The notes under the pieces were generated by a model that was not told the origin of the DNA, did not search any database, and saw only the letters and a list, made by a program, of their open reading frames with translations. The position numbers were made by a program, and so were the translations under genes. Below, one piece after another: positions 15,284 to 23,123 of a stretch of 64,000 bases of DNA. This DNA is from an uncultured Nitrospira sp. (GTDB lineage Bacteria > Nitrospirota > Nitrospiria > Nitrospirales > Nitrospiraceae), in NCBI GenBank assembly GCA_902500825.1, contig CABVRX010000015.1, positions 1-64,000 of the forward strand, given 5' to 3'. Each line of letters starts with the position of its first letter. Positions within the stretch are counted from its first letter, which is position 1.

Positions 15284-15634
15284 ATGACCAAACAAGTCGG
15301 TTGCCCGACTGAAATCACGCTCGATGTGATCTCGGGCCGTTGGAAGGTAATGGTTATTTTCTGGCTGCTCCAAGACAAACGGCGGTTCAATCAGCTCCAA
15401 CGTGATCTGTCCGGCATCACGCATCGGACGCTGGCCAAGCAGCTCAAGGAGATGGAGGCCGACGGCTTGGTGGAGCGAGAGGACTTCGGTGAGATCCCTC
15501 CCCGCGTCGAGTATCGGCTGACACCGCTCGGGCGGTCACTGGAGCCGGTGCTAGCGGCCATGCATGAATGGGCGCTACAACACGGCGGCGAGATCCGTCG
15601 TTCGGTGAACGAAAGCGGAAGAGCCAGCGAGTGA
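15284..15634 (+). CDS. HxlR family winged-helix regulator
   Basis: 116 residues. The whole protein is one HxlR domain: CPTEITLDVISGRWKVMVIFWLL, RFNQLQRDLSGITHRTLAKQLKEMEADGLVERE (recognition helix and wing) and RVEYRLTPLGRSLEPVLAAMHEWA. A cysteine at position 7 matches the redox-sensing cysteine of YodB/HypR-type members that respond to quinones or hypochlorite. Divergent pairing with the pirin gene suggests that it represses that gene and itself, and that pirin acts in an electrophile or oxidative response. The regulatory link is inference. Confidence 0.93.
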   Translation: MTKQVGCPTEITLDVISGRWKVMVIFWLLQDKRRFNQLQRDLSGITHRTLAKQLKEMEADGLVEREDFGEIPPRVEYRLTPLGRSLEPVLAAMHEWALQHGGEIRRSVNESGRASE

Positions 15635-15728: not shown

Positions 15729-15757
15729 TTGACGTAGAGCGCGTGATTTTATATTGT
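15729..15757 (+). promoter_or_regulatory. Candidate promoter of the methyltransferase gene
   Basis: TTGACG (15729-15734), 17 bases, then TATTGT (15752-15757), set in an AT-rich spacer (15640-15812). The predicted start near 15764 precedes both possible translation starts (TTG 15813, ATG 15867). Confidence 0.5.
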
Positions 15758-15866
15758 AACCGTCGGATACATTATTGAATCTATCGGTCAGTTCGATCTA
15801 TACAACGACATATTGGATATTAGTTCCTTGACCACTACTAAATGCTGCGTTAGACTCGCGCCCGCA

Positions 15867-17198
15867 ATGCCTACCGTTTCCCGATCAACCAAACCAAAGC
15901 CTATATTTCGAGACCCTGCGTTCATGGGAAACCGTAGGGCGCCAATACATAGATGGGTGCCATGGATCGCTGGGTTTAGTGGACAATTCATTCAAGATGC
16001 TTTCCGAGAGTTCCTCCCGAAGCAAAGCAAACTACGCCGCCCACTAGTTCTAGATCCGTTTGCCGGTGTGGGCACAACTCTTGTTGAAGCACTTCTTCAC
16101 GGGTATGACACCGTCGGCTTCGAGATCAATCCCTACGCATCTCTTGCAGCGCGTGTAAAGCTCTCTGCTACTGAACTCGCGCCCGCTAAAATAGCCGAGC
16201 TGATACAGGTCATTCGGCAAGAATCTAAGCTATGGAAGGATCATCAGCTAAACCTTAAGCGCTATCGACCAAGCGAATTCGTTTCACGAATTCCTTTCTT
16301 TTCTGAACGAATAGAGCCGCAAATTCTGAATATCCTTCGGCTTCTCGATACCTACTCTCCCAGAGAGGTAGCCGACCTTGGCAGAATTGCGCTTGGTGCA
16401 GTGCTTGTTGGAGTTTCAAACTATAGTTACGAACCAAGCCTATCCTCGCGACCGGGGGCAGGCAAGCCTTTATTAGAGGACGCTGATGTTGCGTCCATAG
16501 TTAACGAAAAACTGGAAGAGATCCTAGCTGATGTGCGATGGTTACATTTACATCAAAAGGACATAGGCAACGAGAGACGGGAGGTTTACACAAAGAATTT
16601 CCTCACGGTCAATGGAGAACTGCCTAGTGGATCGGTGGATCTAATGATTACCTCTCCGCCGTACATGAACAACTACCACTATATTCGCAATACGAGGCCT
16701 CATTTGTTTTGGCTCTCTTTAGTAACATCGCCCAGAGAGCTTCATCGTCTTGAAGAAGATAATTTTGGCAAGTTCTGGCAGACAGTGCGCAATGCCGATC
16801 CTATTTCACTCACTTGTGAGCACCATGGCCTGAAATCTCTCATCGCGGAACTTCGAGAGATTCGAACCGATGCCGGAGCATATGGAGGAGAGGGGTGGGC
16901 TAACTATGTCACCACCTATTTTAATGACTGCAATCGGTTCGTGCAGATCCTTAGAAGAGTACTTAGAAGAGGTGGCGCTGGAGTCGTAGTTATCGGAAAT
17001 TCTATTATCCAGGGACTCAACATTGCCACGGATCGAATTCTTGCCGATATTGCAGAGACAAATGGGTTACGTCTTGAACGTATTGTCCCTCTCCGAGAAA
17101 AGCGTGTAGGGGCAAGCATTACGAAATCGTCAGTGAGACGCGGCCTGCAGAGTTTGGGGTCACTCTATGAAAGTGCGGTCATTCTCAGGAAGCGTTAG
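15867..17198 (+). CDS. DNA amino-methyltransferase of a type II restriction system
   Basis: 443 residues from ATG 15867 (TTG 15813 would add 18; neither has a good ribosome site). SAM-binding motif I is DPFAGVGTT (63-71) with the acidic residue in GFEINPY (84-90). Catalytic motif IV is TSPPY (262-266), which is typical of N4-cytosine or N6-adenine methylases and not of C5-methylases. The 190 residues between the motifs would hold the target-recognition region. Codon use and base composition are AT-richer than the flanks, suggesting transfer. The 3' end overlaps the endonuclease gene tail to tail by 14 bases. Its role is to protect host DNA at the sequence the neighbouring nuclease cuts. Confidence 0.88.
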   Translation: MPTVSRSTKPKPIFRDPAFMGNRRAPIHRWVPWIAGFSGQFIQDAFREFLPKQSKLRRPLVLDPFAGVGTTLVEALLHGYDTVGFEINPYASLAARVKLSATELAPAKIAELIQVIRQESKLWKDHQLNLKRYRPSEFVSRIPFFSERIEPQILNILRLLDTYSPREVADLGRIALGAVLVGVSNYSYEPSLSSRPGAGKPLLEDADVASIVNEKLEEILADVRWLHLHQKDIGNERREVYTKNFLTVNGELPSGSVDLMITSPPYMNNYHYIRNTRPHLFWLSLVTSPRELHRLEEDNFGKFWQTVRNADPISLTCEHHGLKSLIAELREIRTDAGAYGGEGWANYVTTYFNDCNRFVQILRRVLRRGGAGVVVIGNSIIQGLNIATDRILADIAETNGLRLERIVPLREKRVGASITKSSVRRGLQSLGSLYESAVILRKR

Positions 17199-17628
17199 GA
17201 TTGCGCAACGGAAAGTCCTTATCCCATTTGCTCACTCGAATACCCGGACGCCCTTTCCCAGGTACGTGGCTACCGAAACCGCTTAAGTTCCATAATGGCT
17301 TATAGTTGGTTATCAGAGCATCCTCGGCAGCTCTCACAAACCAATCACTATCTATTGTCAAAAATCTACACGTAATTTCGCCTAGAGATAGGTTGCTCCG
17401 GCCTGCTATTTTTCTTGCATGTTCTGCCAAACGCCTCCTGAGCGTAGTGTGCAAAGCTTTTCCGGCGTAGATAAGCTTGCCTTTCCAGTAAAGAACATAC
17501 ACTCCCTTAAGCTGCGGAGCTACGCTTTCACTCAGTTTCAGCTCAGGTGATGCTTCCAGCTTTTCAACAACCTGCGTACGGATGGCGCGATCAATCTCAA
17601 AAACGAAGTGGTGGGAGTCGTGTGGCAC
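17185..17628 (-). CDS. GIY-YIG restriction endonuclease, Eco29kI family
   Basis: 147 residues from GTG 17628. The GIY-YIG core is KGVYVLYWKGKLIYAGKA (41-58). It is followed by R66 and H70 in RRRLAEH, E102 in AAEDALI and N114 in PLWNLSGFG, a set whose order and R-4-H and E-12-N spacing fit the Eco29kI-type active site as I know it. The tail GFGSHVPGKGRPGIRVSKWDKDFP is the family signature. Eco29kI and close relatives cut CCGCGG, but specificity cannot be read from this sequence. It is shorter than Eco29kI, mainly in the insertion between the two tyrosines. Convergent with the methylase gene; no controller protein gene is visible. Confidence 0.88.
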   Translation of the reverse strand: MPHDSHHFVFEIDRAIRTQVVEKLEASPELKLSESVAPQLKGVYVLYWKGKLIYAGKALHTTLRRRLAEHARKIAGRSNLSLGEITCRFLTIDSDWFVRAAEDALITNYKPLWNLSGFGSHVPGKGRPGIRVSKWDKDFPLRNPNAS

Positions 17629-17634
17629 TTGTGC

Positions 17635-17663
17635 GTTTTAACACCACGTCATCTTGAGGTCAA
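17635..17663 (-). promoter_or_regulatory. Candidate promoter giving a leaderless endonuclease mRNA
   Basis: On the minus strand TTGACC (17663-17658), a 17-base spacer and TAAAAC (17640-17635). Counting seven bases on from the -10 box puts the transcript start at 17628, which is the G of the GTG start codon. Confidence 0.45.
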
Positions 17664-17680
17664 CTTACACGTGCATTTAA

Positions 17681-17910
17681 GCAACCAGGCTCCCTTCCAT
17701 CGCGGCTCATGTTCGAGGCAAGATCTGGGAGTTGCGTCCAGAATGGGCTGGGAATGAATACCGGTTCTTTTATGGGGCCATTGTGGGTCAGCGGTTTGTC
17801 ATTCTCCACACGATTCAGAGGAACGGCAGAAGCTTCGTGCTCGAGACATCATGATCGCGGAACAACGGTACGAGGACCTGAAAGGAAGGATGCACCATGA
17901 AAACACATAG
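17681..17910 (+). pseudogene. Broken HigB/RelE-type toxin gene
   Basis: From 17681 one frame reads ATRLPSIAAHVRGKIWELR, continuing through EYRFFYGAIVGQRFVILHTIQRNG to a stop after LETS. This is the core of a phage Gp49/HigB-like RelE-superfamily mRNA interferase (RGKxWELR, YRxFY, LHxxxR). The family C-terminus then continues in another frame from 17842 (RDIMIAEQRYEDLKGR) and stops at TAG 17910, overlapping the antitoxin start by 14 bases as in intact higBA loci. So there is a frameshift near 17840, and the N-terminal third is missing: a stop at 17678 and the restriction gene lie directly upstream. Inactive toxin. Confidence 0.8.
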
Positions 17911-18220
17911 ACAATACATCAACGAGCAGATCAAGAAAGACCCGAAATTCGCCGATGCGGTGGCGAAGGCGGAGCAAGAGGTCGGAATCGCCGTGGTGCT
18001 GGCCAATTTGCGCGAACGACGTGGGTTGAGTCAGATGGAGTTGGCAAAACTCACCGGTATGAAACAGCCGCAGATTGCCCGTCTGGAAAGTGGTGCCTAT
18101 TTCCCTTCCTTTAGCACCCTACAGAAGCTGCTGGACGTACTTGGTGGCAAAATGGAACTGACGGCGGACGCTTGCCACCTCACTCCCGTGCGAGGAAAGG
18201 TCGCTAGCGCGCGGCGGTAG
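17897..18220 (+). CDS. higA: XRE-family antitoxin, HigA-like
   Basis: 107 residues. A helix-turn-helix at 44-65 (LSQMELAKLTGMKQPQIARLESG) is followed by FPSFSTLQKLLDVLGGKMEL, the standard XRE/HigA fold. The N-terminal helix (MKTHRQYINEQIKKDPKFADAVAKAEQE) matches HigA-type antitoxins that pair with Gp49-like toxins. Ribosome site AAAGGAAGG precedes the ATG. It is intact although its toxin gene is broken, so it can only serve as a DNA-binding repressor of its own promoter or as an antidote to related toxins elsewhere. Confidence 0.88.
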   Translation: MKTHRQYINEQIKKDPKFADAVAKAEQEVGIAVVLANLRERRGLSQMELAKLTGMKQPQIARLESGAYFPSFSTLQKLLDVLGGKMELTADACHLTPVRGKVASARR

Positions 18221-18325: not shown

Positions 18326-19885
18326 TCACCGTTTTCCGTCATACCCTCGCTCTTTCCACCGCTCTAGTAATTGAATGCGCTTGCGAAGCTGTTCAGTCGT
18401 CGCCTGGTCGACACGGCTCCCGGTGCGCGCGATCAGTTCCGCGTTGAGCCTTCGATGATCGATTCCGCTCGTTCGTGCGACGCCGGCAACCAGCAGCCGA
18501 TGAAGATCTCGCAGATTTTGCTTCTGCTCATGGAGTGAGACAGCCGGTTCGGAAACGCCGGCCACATCGCTCTCCCCTCGTGTCTCGTCTTCACCGATCA
18601 GGCTATCTACCCTGGCCACAGCCATCAACGGCATGTATTCGTTCGTCGAGACTGTGACGCGGCCGAAGAGGTCCCGTTGCCCCGCCGGCATGATGTCTTC
18701 CAACACATGATCGCGCTCTGCCTTGATCTGCTTGGCGTAGTGCACCAGGACCGGATCTTTGGGTAGATACAGCCAGGCCCGTTGTGGTTTAGGCAGCCCC
18801 TCCTGCATCCGAACGAACCGGCCGACGACCTGTCGGAAGTACATTTCCGTGATCACGTTGGTGCCATAGACGCCGACACGGAGTCGCGGAATATCCACGC
18901 CTTCGCTCACCATGTTGACCGCCACTAGCCACTGCTGCTTTTTGTGATCGGCGAACTCTTCAATCGTGCGTGAGGCAGCGGGATCGTCCGACACGGCAAC
19001 GGCTGCTTTGGCGCCGACGATACGACCGACGAGGTCCGCCACCCACCGTGCGTGTTCCTGATCCATACACACGATCAGTCCACCGGCATCCGGTTGTTCC
19101 TGCTTGCGAAGACGGGTCAATTGGGCATGGGCATCAGTGATCACCGGCCCCAGCCAGGTTTCCTGAAGCAATGCTGTCTTCAGCCGTTCCCTCTGCCGAT
19201 TGAATGTCAGTCCATCCTCAAACGTCGCCTGATGCTCACGGCCATCAGATAACCAGCTGAGCTCGCCTTCGTAGCTCGGGAAGACGATCGGCCGACAGAC
19301 GCTGTCCCGAATCGCATCGGTATAGCCATAGGCGAAATCTGCGCGGCTTTCTCCATGTTCATACCGAATAAACGGAATCGGATTGTTATCTGAACGAAAG
19401 GGCGTGCCCGAGAGAATCAACCGGAACACCGCCGGGTCAAACGCTGAACGCAGCGCCTTTCCCCAGTTCTTGCCGTCGCCGGCGTGATGCAGCTCGTCGA
19501 AGACGAGCAGTGTCTTCTTGCTCTTACAGATTCGCTGGAAGCTCACCGGGGCCAGACAGACCTGCTGGTAGGTCACCACGGCGCCGTGATAGTCCGGCGC
19601 TTCCGCCACCTGTTCGTTGGTCAGGGTCGGATCAAGCTGCAAGCCGATCTTCCCCGCTGCATCCGACCATTGCGTGCGAAGATGATTCGTCGGGCAAACA
19701 ACCAGCACCCGGACCGCAGCCTGTTTCGCCATAAATTCATGCGCGACGCGTAGCGCAAAACGCGTCTTGCCTGCGGCAGGAGTGGCCATCGCCAGAAAGT
19801 CTCTGGTCTGATGTGTACAGACCGCCGACAGAGCTCGTTGCTGCCAGTCACGAAGGGGCGCGGTCCAGACAGGCAATCTCTTCAT
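18326..19885 (-). CDS. Superfamily 2 DEAD/DEAH-type helicase
   Basis: 519 residues. Helicase motifs in order: LRDWQQRAL (Q-like), Walker A TPAAGKTR (35-42), VVCPTNHLRTQW (Ia), VFDELHHAGDGKNW (II, DELH), LSGTPFRSDN (III), VNMVSEGVDIPRL (V) and QVVGRFVRMQ (VI). This is the ResIII/UvsW-like branch, double-stranded DNA translocases and helicases. The C-terminal 130 residues have no recognised domain. It follows topoisomerase VI A by 34 bases on the same strand, so the three genes are probably one operon. A shared role in untangling or remodelling DNA is inference. It might also be a defence-type helicase. Confidence 0.88.
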   Translation of the reverse strand: MKRLPVWTAPLRDWQQRALSAVCTHQTRDFLAMATPAAGKTRFALRVAHEFMAKQAAVRVLVVCPTNHLRTQWSDAAGKIGLQLDPTLTNEQVAEAPDYHGAVVTYQQVCLAPVSFQRICKSKKTLLVFDELHHAGDGKNWGKALRSAFDPAVFRLILSGTPFRSDNNPIPFIRYEHGESRADFAYGYTDAIRDSVCRPIVFPSYEGELSWLSDGREHQATFEDGLTFNRQRERLKTALLQETWLGPVITDAHAQLTRLRKQEQPDAGGLIVCMDQEHARWVADLVGRIVGAKAAVAVSDDPAASRTIEEFADHKKQQWLVAVNMVSEGVDIPRLRVGVYGTNVITEMYFRQVVGRFVRMQEGLPKPQRAWLYLPKDPVLVHYAKQIKAERDHVLEDIMPAGQRDLFGRVTVSTNEYMPLMAVARVDSLIGEDETRGESDVAGVSEPAVSLHEQKQNLRDLHRLLVAGVARTSGIDHRRLNAELIARTGSRVDQATTEQLRKRIQLLERWKERGYDGKR

Positions 19886-19919
19886 CGCCGATGCGTCGTT
19901 GCCGGTTCGAGGGAAAAGG

Positions 19920-21023
19920 TTAATCGAGCCAATCCCGTTCCTGAAGTTTTTTCGGCAGGTATTTCTTGGTGAGATACTGGAAGTCTTTATTGGCCAACGC
20001 GTCGAGTTCGTATTTCAATCCGCTCGTCAGCATGCGCTTGATCTCCGCTTGCCAAGCTGGTTTTTTGAACCACTCATAGTTCATCAACTCTTTTGCGCGC
20101 GCGATGTCTTTGTCGTTCAATTTGATCCCGACGTTACGGGGCAGCTCGTACTGCTCCGGGTCGGCACTCGATAAGCCCATGAACTTGGCTTTGGGAATCG
20201 CCATCCGCTGACTTTCAAAGGCCAGGTTGATCGAACCCTGTTTGATGACCGAATAGATGTAGTACCCCCAGGGATCGTTATCGACCAACACATACACCGG
20301 CAGCTTGTATTCTTCATGGAGCCGTCTTGCAAGGCGACGGACGCCGCGGGGTGGCTGGCCGTTACCCGTCAGTAACACGCAGTTATAGCGCCGCCAGAAC
20401 TTATCCTCCGACAGCCGATTCCACTGGGTGCCCTTTTCGACAAGCAGCACGAAATCTGCCGTGCATCGCCTGATCTCCAAATACTCCGGCTCAACGATTG
20501 ATGGGACAGAATATCCACCTTTGCCCAGCTTGGCACAATCGACGCGATCGCCGTCATCACCGAAGACCACCGGCCCGACGATGCTGCCGCTGTTCTCTGC
20601 ACGCACATGGAGCTCTTCCCGAAGCGCGGCAAGAGAGACTTCCAAATCTTCGATCACCGGGTCGGACTCATCCTGCGTATCGAACGTGTTCTCGTGTGAA
20701 TCTTGAATCGTGTGTTTCGTCCGGTAATAAATTTCTCGAAGCGAGGTCGTGAGATCGGCCCGCTGCAATTCGGAGAGGGCATCGGCGACGAGCACCGTCT
20801 GCATAAATTTCTTCGCCATGCCGACGTTGAAAAATGACCGCTCCTGTTTCTTGCTCCCCATCTCGATCAGGCCCTTCCGTTCATTGAAGGACACATTCGA
20901 GAGGGCACGGATCGGGATCTGAAACGTCGGGTCTTTTGATCGATCGGCCGCCTGGATCACGATGTCCGCCAGGCCGATGAGCTTCTTCTCGACCAGGGTC
21001 GTCTTCTTCGTCTTGGTCGTCAT
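19920..21023 (-). CDS. top6A: DNA topoisomerase VI subunit A (Spo11-like)
   Basis: 367 residues, usual length. This subunit cuts and rejoins both strands in the A2B2 type IIB topoisomerase. The winged-helix domain carries the catalytic tyrosine in TSLREIYYRTKH (about 93-104, Y99/Y100). The Toprim domain follows with VLLVEKGTQWNRL (metal-binding Glu) and VLVDNDPWGYYIYS (DxD). Subunit B starts 6 bases upstream in the same operon. Topoisomerase VI is general in archaea and plants but sporadic in bacteria, so the pair was probably acquired laterally at some time. Codon use is now like its neighbours. Confidence 0.95.
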   Translation of the reverse strand: MTTKTKKTTLVEKKLIGLADIVIQAADRSKDPTFQIPIRALSNVSFNERKGLIEMGSKKQERSFFNVGMAKKFMQTVLVADALSELQRADLTTSLREIYYRTKHTIQDSHENTFDTQDESDPVIEDLEVSLAALREELHVRAENSGSIVGPVVFGDDGDRVDCAKLGKGGYSVPSIVEPEYLEIRRCTADFVLLVEKGTQWNRLSEDKFWRRYNCVLLTGNGQPPRGVRRLARRLHEEYKLPVYVLVDNDPWGYYIYSVIKQGSINLAFESQRMAIPKAKFMGLSSADPEQYELPRNVGIKLNDKDIARAKELMNYEWFKKPAWQAEIKRMLTSGLKYELDALANKDFQYLTKKYLPKKLQERDWLD

Positions 21024-21029
21024 AATGTC

Positions 21030-23123
21030 CTACTTGGGTTTGCGCGGAGCCACTGACTTAACCGGTTTAGTGGATCTTCCACCAGGTTTCTTCTTTGCCC
21101 CAGACTCACCGGCAAAGAGCGCGATTTGACCAGATTTCGTGGCTGTCTTCGGCAATTTTTTCGCGCGGTTCTCCTTGGCGGCTTTTTCTTTCGGAGCCGG
21201 CTCATCTGTAGACGCTGTCTTCCCCGGCAGATCCGGCTCCGCAGTGGGTGCGGCTGTCGCCTGATCGGCTTCAACCTGAGTGGCCAATTCAGTCTCTCCC
21301 TCGACTCCCTCTGCCGTGACGATAATTGAATGCGGCAATCCTTCAGGCCCTCCGCCGGTCTTCCCCAGCGCGTCATCGGTTTTCTGACCGCCTGTCCTGG
21401 CGGAGGCGATCTTCTGGAGCTGCCCTTTTAGTTTTTCTTTCGGCAGCGTGCCGCCCTTCAGCCGGTTACAGGCCTCGACGACTTCCTCGATATACAATTC
21501 AAAGATATTTCGGCGCCGAAATTCACTCGCCGCCCGTTCGCGCCGACGAACGAAGAGGCCCAACCGCCTGCCGCACTCGCGAAGGGCCAGTGTGATCTCT
21601 TTTTGGATCTCATCATAGTCCGCGATGGCTTCTTTGGATTCACTCGTAAACGGCACCCAGACCGACGCCATATGGACGAAGATCACCAGCGGTCCACCCG
21701 GCAACGCCCCGCGTGATTGGGTCAAGCCGTAGTTTTTCCAGGTTGTGCTCAGGACAGCCTTGAACGTCGAACAGGCCGATTGCTGGTAGAGCAGCGGCAC
21801 CCGATTTGCGTAACGGATTACACGCGCGAGTTCGGAGTCTTCCTCCTCGTGCTCGCCTTCCGCCTTCGGCATAGCCGGCTGCTGCGGCTTATGTTGATCC
21901 TGAGGTCTATTCCCGTAGGCGAGCCCGGCTTCGATGATGAACGGATTGCCGCGATAGACTGCCGGTGGCCGGCTGACTGCCGTGTAAAACTCTCCCTTGA
22001 TCTGTTTGTAGAGCCCGGAGAGGATCGCTTTTTCGCCGATCGGTGAAATGCAATTGGTCGGGGGCGCCATGATCTTTGTTTCTTGCAATGTCTTATACAG
22101 CGTTTCCGCCACAGGCCCTTTCAGCTCACGAGGCTTTGCGCTAAGCGACACCTTGGCCGTCTTGCAGATCTCCTCAGCCAATTGCAGAGAGATGCGGCAA
22201 AAATCGCCGGCAAGAAAACCGGAGAGCGTGTGGCTCTTCGTATCCTGTAACATCTTGAGCAGCATGCCGAATTCGATGCCGTAGGGATGCGGCTTGATCT
22301 CGCGCGGCTGCGGCGGCAGTTCGTGATAGGTCCGGGGGTACTCTTTCGTTTCCCGTTCCGGCGTCAGGTAGATCAGTTTGACATGGGGATTGGCGATCGA
22401 GGTCTGCTCCAGCCATTCATCGACCGAGGCACGGCCCTTCTGATACTTGCCTTCGACTTCCAGCGTGACTTGAGTCCCTCGCGGCTGCTCCCAGTCGATC
22501 TGTTTGTTCTCGTGGACCAGCGGCTCGTTCTTCTTTGTATCGATCTGGACTTCAAAGAAATGCGCGGCGGCTTTGGGGCCGATGCGGGAAATAATTTTCA
22601 CCGGCTTGCCGGTGGTCAGTTGTCCGTACATTCCGGCTGCGGAAATGCCGATACCCTGTTGCCCACGGCTCATCCGCAGCCTATGGAACTTGGACCCATA
22701 GAGCAGCTTCGCGAAGATCCTGGGAATCTGCTGACGGACGATGCCGGGTCCGTTGTCGGTCACCGTGATGCGAAACCTGCTTGCTTGGCTGGGCGCTACC
22801 GGCTCCCCATTCGGCACAACCTCCAGCTTGACCGTCACATCCGGAAGAATCCCGGCCTCCTCGCAGGCGTCGAGCGCGTTGTCGACCGCCTCTTTGACGC
22901 AGGTCAGCAGCGCTTTGCGCGGATTATCGAAACCGAGCAGGTGCCGATTCTTCGTAAAAAACTCTGAGACGGAGATTTCCCGCTGACGCGCGCCCATCTC
23001 AACCGCAGTCACCCGCTCCGCCGGTTTGGCGGCGGCTTTCGTCTTTGCAGCTGGTTCAGGGGTTAATCGAGGAGCGGAAGATTTCGATTCAGTCTCTGAT
23101 GCGGATTCTTTCTTTTGTGCCAT
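21030..23123 (-). CDS. top6B: DNA topoisomerase VI subunit B
   Basis: 697 residues. ATPase subunit of topoisomerase VI. The GHKL fold shows VKEAVDNALDA (76-86), TDNGPG (122-127) and SRGQQGIG (152-159), followed by the helix-two-turn-helix region and the transducer with its lysine-switch region. It is longer than archaeal subunits (about 530). The extra length is a 40-residue Ala/Lys/Ser-rich N-terminus and a C-terminal tail from about residue 590 rich in Ala, Lys, Glu and Pro, probably disordered and DNA-binding. ATP binding dimerises the subunits and gates strand passage by subunit A. First gene of the topoisomerase-helicase cluster. Confidence 0.95.
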   Translation of the reverse strand: MAQKKESASETESKSSAPRLTPEPAAKTKAAAKPAERVTAVEMGARQREISVSEFFTKNRHLLGFDNPRKALLTCVKEAVDNALDACEEAGILPDVTVKLEVVPNGEPVAPSQASRFRITVTDNGPGIVRQQIPRIFAKLLYGSKFHRLRMSRGQQGIGISAAGMYGQLTTGKPVKIISRIGPKAAAHFFEVQIDTKKNEPLVHENKQIDWEQPRGTQVTLEVEGKYQKGRASVDEWLEQTSIANPHVKLIYLTPERETKEYPRTYHELPPQPREIKPHPYGIEFGMLLKMLQDTKSHTLSGFLAGDFCRISLQLAEEICKTAKVSLSAKPRELKGPVAETLYKTLQETKIMAPPTNCISPIGEKAILSGLYKQIKGEFYTAVSRPPAVYRGNPFIIEAGLAYGNRPQDQHKPQQPAMPKAEGEHEEEDSELARVIRYANRVPLLYQQSACSTFKAVLSTTWKNYGLTQSRGALPGGPLVIFVHMASVWVPFTSESKEAIADYDEIQKEITLALRECGRRLGLFVRRRERAASEFRRRNIFELYIEEVVEACNRLKGGTLPKEKLKGQLQKIASARTGGQKTDDALGKTGGGPEGLPHSIIVTAEGVEGETELATQVEADQATAAPTAEPDLPGKTASTDEPAPKEKAAKENRAKKLPKTATKSGQIALFAGESGAKKKPGGRSTKPVKSVAPRKPK

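Follow-up and report, generated by a model that had tools for sequence, protein, structure and literature searches.

A probable DraI-type restriction-modification cassette in Nitrospira: a compact Eco29kI-family nuclease gene convergent with a predicted N4-cytosine methyltransferase gene

In a Nitrospira chromosome segment of 64,000 nucleotides, referred to below as the window (contig C15 of genome G000; 3.79 Mb, 99.8% complete), a nuclease gene and a methyltransferase (MTase) gene meet tail to tail. The question raised by this arrangement is whether the two genes form a working restriction-modification (R-M) system and, if so, of which kind. As argued below, the locus is probably a mobile and functional Type II R-M cassette of the DraI kind, in which an Eco29kI nuclease is combined with an N4-cytosine methylase. 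The initial annotation, which spanned 15729-17663 and took in both genes plus two outer -35-like boxes, implied that the pairing of an amino-MTase with an Eco29kI nuclease was new. It had already been published in 2024 for DraI and two Roseiflexus systems (PMC10855626). The locus is of value for the orientation rule, the exchange of partners and the small size of the nuclease rather than for the pairing itself.

The two gene products and their likely recognition site

The MTase frame is open from a TTG at 15813 to 17198 on the forward strand. The likeliest start is the ATG at 15867, from which the N-terminus MPTVSRS... is common to all five Nitrospira copies, and the gene so delimited (15867..17198, +) encodes 443 aa. 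Both motifs cited in the initial annotation, DPFAGVGT (residues 63-70, with FxGxG at 65-69) and TSPPY (262-266), are present, and the protein matches the Pfam family N6_N4_Mtase above the cut-off (1.8e-10), in agreement with an amino-methyltransferase. FxGxG stands ahead of SPPY with about 190 residues between them, which is the order of the alpha class. M.DraR1 of D. radiodurans is its best characterised relative, with 43% identity over 435 columns, nearly the full length. Identity to M.DraR1 is 47/119 (39%) across the stretch presumed to recognise the target and 43/63 in the block around TSPPY, and common blocks include one like SNYSYEPSL...AGK..IEDADV and TSPPYxNNYHYxRNTRPHL. That the overall identity is just 43% is a point against the main R-M reading. 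The structure model of the MTase (pLDDT 45) is unusable.

The nuclease gene (17185..17628, -) encodes 147 aa. Its sole possible start is the GTG at 17628, the open frame being just 150 codons long. The protein matches Pfam RE_Eco29kI (PF09517) with E 1.5e-21 and 77.3 bits (cut-off 30.8), over residues 61-140 only. Its best PDB sequence matches are Eco29kI chains (2.6e-14), and its ColabFold model retrieved in Foldseek eleven R.Eco29kI chains first, followed by UvrC GIY-YIG domains; the mean pLDDT of the model is 74, with 77-93 for residues 10-110 and less than 50 after residue 113, where it is unreliable. These profile, sequence and fold matches bear out the assignment to the Eco29kI type made earlier. 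Residues Y44, Y54, R66, H70, E102 and N114 align with Y49, Y76, R104, H108, E142 and N154 of Eco29kI, the six residues assigned to its active site, of which five were mutated in that study (PMC1952068).

In the nuclease, the GIY strand is joined to the YIG strand, and the YIG strand to the RLxxH helix, without the loop that Eco29kI has at each place, and the C-terminal extension of Eco29kI is absent. It does not have the full-length architecture of PF09517 (about 200-240 aa, two inserted loops and a C-terminal extension), an architecture common in the Eco29kI family but perhaps not strictly defining. The span from GIY to RLxxH is 24 residues, where most full-length relatives have 52-57; about 30 aa of loop sequence are absent, and the length of 147 aa compares with 193-262 aa for the full-length relatives. 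The GFGxHxPGxGR motif is retained. The compact form also occurs in the Acidobacteria contig L006, with 65% identity. The window protein is a candidate minimal GIY-YIG restriction enzyme. As a single-protein query in the viral scan it gave no match. A second short-loop group of Eco29kI-like nucleases was seen on Rhizobium, Ruegeria and Methylocaldum plasmids (L127, L128 and L129), accompanied by a C5 methylase and Vsr; in these proteins the WN motif is followed by about 130 residues, which form a different C-terminal domain, and the nuclease profile did not reach them.

M.DraR1 is an N4-cytosine enzyme acting on the second C of CCGCGG, as established by SMRT, deletion, binding and protection assays (PMC6712171), and its Eco29kI-like partner, R.DraR1, cuts CCGC/GG (PMC10855626). 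By analogy with M.DraR1, the site of the window pair is most likely CCGCGG, with N4-methylation of the second C. Site frequencies were estimated with a maximum-order Markov model for all 4- and 6-base palindromes, using 464 kb of the window's genome. The observed/expected ratio of CCGCGG is 0.76 in this genome and 0.86 and 0.77 in two other carriers, versus 0.77-0.91 in four Nitrospira relatives without the R-M genes and 0.65 in one carrier of a C5-type system. The CCGCGG count suggested as a check in the initial annotation therefore does not discriminate; no carrier-specific avoidance of CCGCGG is seen in the Markov comparison of genomes with and without the R-M genes, and no inference on the site is drawn from the counts. 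Dinucleotide shuffling of the window gave a larger deficit (15 sites versus 32), which was set aside because higher-order composition is ignored by this method.

It is possible, though less probable than not by a clear measure, that a system of the same architecture has drifted to another site, perhaps a shorter or degenerate GC-rich palindrome. Such a drift would be consistent with the missing loops and C-terminal extension of the nuclease, with the different C-terminal domain of the second short-loop group, and with the lack of specific CCGCGG avoidance in carriers; a nuclease without loops and tail may have a recognition site that is shorter or otherwise altered. On the other hand, the MTase retains the blocks that it has in common with M.DraR1, and the nuclease retains GFGxHxPGxGR. 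Judged from the MTase, CCGCGG remains the preferred site.

Among the other palindromes counted, CTCGAG is strongly under-represented relative to the Markov expectation, at 0.35 in the G000 samples (the window and L045-L064), 0.31 in G108 and 0.48 in G220, a depletion that far exceeds that of CCGCGG in these genomes.

Conservation, selection and mobility

The pair is found in five Nitrospira species (the window and L002-L005), always in the same tail-to-tail order and with the same 14-bp overlap. The copies in L002-L005 are 94-96% identical to the window in the MTase and 90-96% in the nuclease. Contigs JACOEH010000048, JAICWG010000027, JAFEBM010000010 and JAICUC010000098 come from carrier Nitrospira. 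Between the species, NG86 dN/dS, calculated with the overlapping 3' end left out, ranges from 0.06 to 0.09 in the MTase and from 0.05 to 0.16 in the nuclease. Both genes are intact and under strong purifying selection and, given these values of omega, the short nuclease is regarded as a maintained protein. It is improbable that the pair is a decaying or inactive relic, with a nuclease that truncation has left dead and an MTase that alone still matters. The nuclease is indeed shorter than every full-length Eco29kI relative in this survey, and one relative (G185) has lost the nuclease and kept the MTase, but the length of 147 aa, the six catalytic residues and the low omega are constant across the five species, and the compact form is shared with the Acidobacteria contig. 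A functional pair remains the preferred reading.

Close relatives of the MTase were found in 15 of the 235 genomes of the order, and an Eco29kI-like nuclease adjoins the MTase in 13 of these; in the other two the nuclease has been lost (G185) or the contig ends (G227). The pair is also present in two Nitrospirota species outside the order (G226 and G449). Altogether, the two genes are adjacent in 15 Nitrospirota species, being convergent in 14 and co-directional in one (G393). A viral contig (L100) carries a convergent pair with the identical 14-bp overlap, and a convergent m4C-type MTase and Eco29kI-like nuclease are found in Haloarcula virus HJTV-2. More distant MTases, matching only at about 1e-40, have no Eco29kI-like neighbour.

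Two incomplete copies may be described here. In G185 (L111) the MTase is intact and only the last codons of the nuclease gene are left beside other sequence, which resembles a solitary MTase in the making. In the Acidobacteria contig (L006:3513-5579) the compact nuclease relative, which has an altered C-terminus, is followed by an HNH endonuclease gene and then by a truncated MTase; this is a degraded or interrupted copy on a contig with a coverage of only 1.2x.

The right edge of the cassette was placed at 17680..17690 by comparison of genomes with and without the R-M genes: those with them agree up to 17679-17686, and at least nine without them agree from 17688-17696 on. At this edge lies the remnant of a Gp49/HigB-type toxin gene (17688..17880, +), whose 5' half has been replaced by the cassette and whose remainder is frameshifted. 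The intact form of the toxin in relatives matches Pfam Gp49 (2.8e-22) and is followed by an HTH antitoxin. In the window, the intact HigA-type HTH gene beside the broken toxin gene (17897..18220, +) is regarded as an orphan antitoxin, because the first half of the toxin is absent and the rest frameshifted. This HTH gene was considered as a controller of the R-M genes and rejected, since the Gp49/HigB-HigA locus occurs without R-M genes in at least nine relatives; it is not beside the R-M pair in L002-L005. The interval from the HxlR gene, which ends at 15634, to the orphan antitoxin contains no C, V or H element. The nearest HTH gene being the antitoxin of a broken toxin-antitoxin locus, the earlier statement that the pair has no controller gene stands.

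In G220 (C1:70830-71172 and L178) the cassette occupies a second site, to which it has carried the last ~65 bp of the HxlR gene. The pirin-HxlR locus of G220 itself runs straight into the sequence found 3' of the cassette in L002 and L003, and so represents an empty site relative to the insert of roughly 2.35 kb in those two. The second site and the empty site together indicate that the cassette has changed place within the genus; neither an integrase nor a repeat that could account for the movement was identified. The GC content is 48-50% over 16-18 kb versus about 55-57% around it, so that the AT-rich island described initially corresponds to a real but modest drop. Beyond the antitoxin gene, at 18326-23123 on the reverse strand, topoisomerase VI (subunits A and B) and a ResIII/DEAD helicase are encoded in a row, which is unusual for a bacterium.

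Overlap, candidate promoters and proposed working

The 3' ends of the two genes overlap by exactly 14 bp (17185..17198), as the initial annotation reported, and they do so in all five Nitrospira copies. In convergent relatives outside these five, the stop codons mostly lie 1-4 bp apart without overlap, the viral contig L100 being an exception.

At either outer end of the cassette lies a candidate promoter, so that each gene may have one to itself. For the MTase, the candidate TTGACC-17-TAGACT (15828..15856, +) has hexamers that are nearly invariant in the five species and ends about 10 bp ahead of the ATG, so that the mRNA would be nearly leaderless. A second candidate lies upstream (TTGACG-17-TATTGT; 15729..15757, +), with a -35 box invariant in the five species. 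For the nuclease, a weak candidate (TTGACC-17-TAAAAC; 17635..17663, -) lies 6 bp ahead of the GTG and would give a leaderless transcript; its -10 box is invariant in the five species but off consensus, and it fails the consensus rule of the promoter scan. Because the numbers of matches in the promoter and terminator scan are not above those in shuffled sequence, these promoters are proposed on conservation only.

In the proposed working of the cassette, the 443-aa alpha-class MTase would methylate N4 of a cytosine within a GC-rich palindrome, the second C of CCGCGG being the likeliest target, and the 147-aa GIY-YIG nuclease would cut the same site when it is unmodified. Incoming unmodified DNA would thereby be destroyed, and loss of the cassette would be punished. 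Nearly leaderless transcripts starting at the outer edges would converge in the 14-bp overlap in a system lacking a controller gene. A MTase promoter stronger than that of the nuclease, together with collision of the convergent transcripts, could delay the nuclease when the cassette enters a new cell. Mutual antisense control through the overlap is possible and remains putative. A more elaborate proposal, that Nitrospira and Acidobacteria share a 147-aa minimal nuclease with a specificity other than CCGCGG, regulated through transcriptional interference by the overlapping m4C MTase gene in place of a controller protein, is considered unlikely.

Partner chemistry and gene orientation

The choice between N4-cytosine and N6-adenine, left open in the initial annotation, may be narrowed: on its 43% identity to the proven M.DraR1, the MTase is probably of the alpha-class N4-cytosine type. 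An N6-adenine enzyme or an RNA methylase is very unlikely, for although Pfam N6_N4_Mtase cannot tell the chemistries apart and there is a weak similarity to the RNA-methylase-like family UPF0020, that match is under the UPF0020 cut-off in the Pfam search, so that the MTase does not score as the non-R-M RNA methylase envisaged earlier, and against these readings stand TSPPY, the full-length identity to an m4C enzyme, the PADLOC assignment to Type II MTases (MTase_II, 8.2e-30) and the fact that close relatives almost always adjoin a restriction nuclease.

Among the published systems for CCGCGG, three are of the m4C type (DraI of D. radiodurans and the two from Roseiflexus) versus 310 of the m5C type (PMC10855626). 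The DraI system, on plasmid CP1, resembles the window pair in combining an alpha-class SPPY N4-cytosine MTase with an Eco29kI-like GIY-YIG nuclease and in being without a C, V or H element. However, R.DraR1 has 217 aa and both loops, the window nuclease being 31% identical to it over the shared part, and the DraI genes are divergent and ~10 kb apart, with transposase and integrase genes between them, whereas those of the window are convergent and overlapping. The Eco29kI system of small E. coli and Salmonella plasmids (PDB 3NIC, 3MX1, 3MX4) has a nuclease of the same family, with the same fold and catalytic residues, but differs in its C5-cytosine methylase partner, its co-directional adjacent genes and its 214-aa nuclease. 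Cfr42I (CCGC^GG, tetrameric; reviewed in PMC4081073) resembles the window nuclease in being a GIY-YIG enzyme and in its site CCGCGG, which for the window nuclease is a prediction. In HJTV-2 (gp103/gp102/gp101), a N4C-type MTase (30% identity) is convergent with an Eco29kI-like nuclease as in the window; the differences are a full-length nuclease, an archaeal virus as carrier and a Trm112-like gene between the two (L044:4814-5032).

What is new here is the compact nuclease and the overlapping convergent genes within the published DraI type. The m4C/Eco29kI type is also more widespread than the literature says: the three published systems are joined by members from at least two more bacterial phyla, Nitrospirota and Acidobacteriota (the latter as a degraded copy), and from an archaeal virus.

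Pairs of a C5 methylase with an Eco29kI-type nuclease are co-directional in 12 of 12 cases, several of them with Vsr (Nitrospirota L009, L012 and L013, and nine plasmid or phage loci, L127-L135). The window pair, being convergent and having an N6_N4_Mtase partner, does not belong to this C5 type. In this survey, gene arrangement tracks the mark, C5 partners being co-directional and N4 partners almost always convergent, and a single nuclease family has two cytosine marks of different chemistry as its safeguard. In the nuclease tree, m4C- and C5-partnered nucleases interleave. The best tree has five partner changes, of which the exact number is uncertain, as the tree has 24 rows and many weak forks; at least two changes are forced by well-supported branches, and on these sequences the history of the family needs more than one. 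Such exchange may be viewed as a small natural experiment, in which R-M systems swap their protective half while expression is kept safe. Eco29kI itself, with its C5 partner, groups with the m4C-partnered L016 and L017 and the viral contig L100 (support 94/81).
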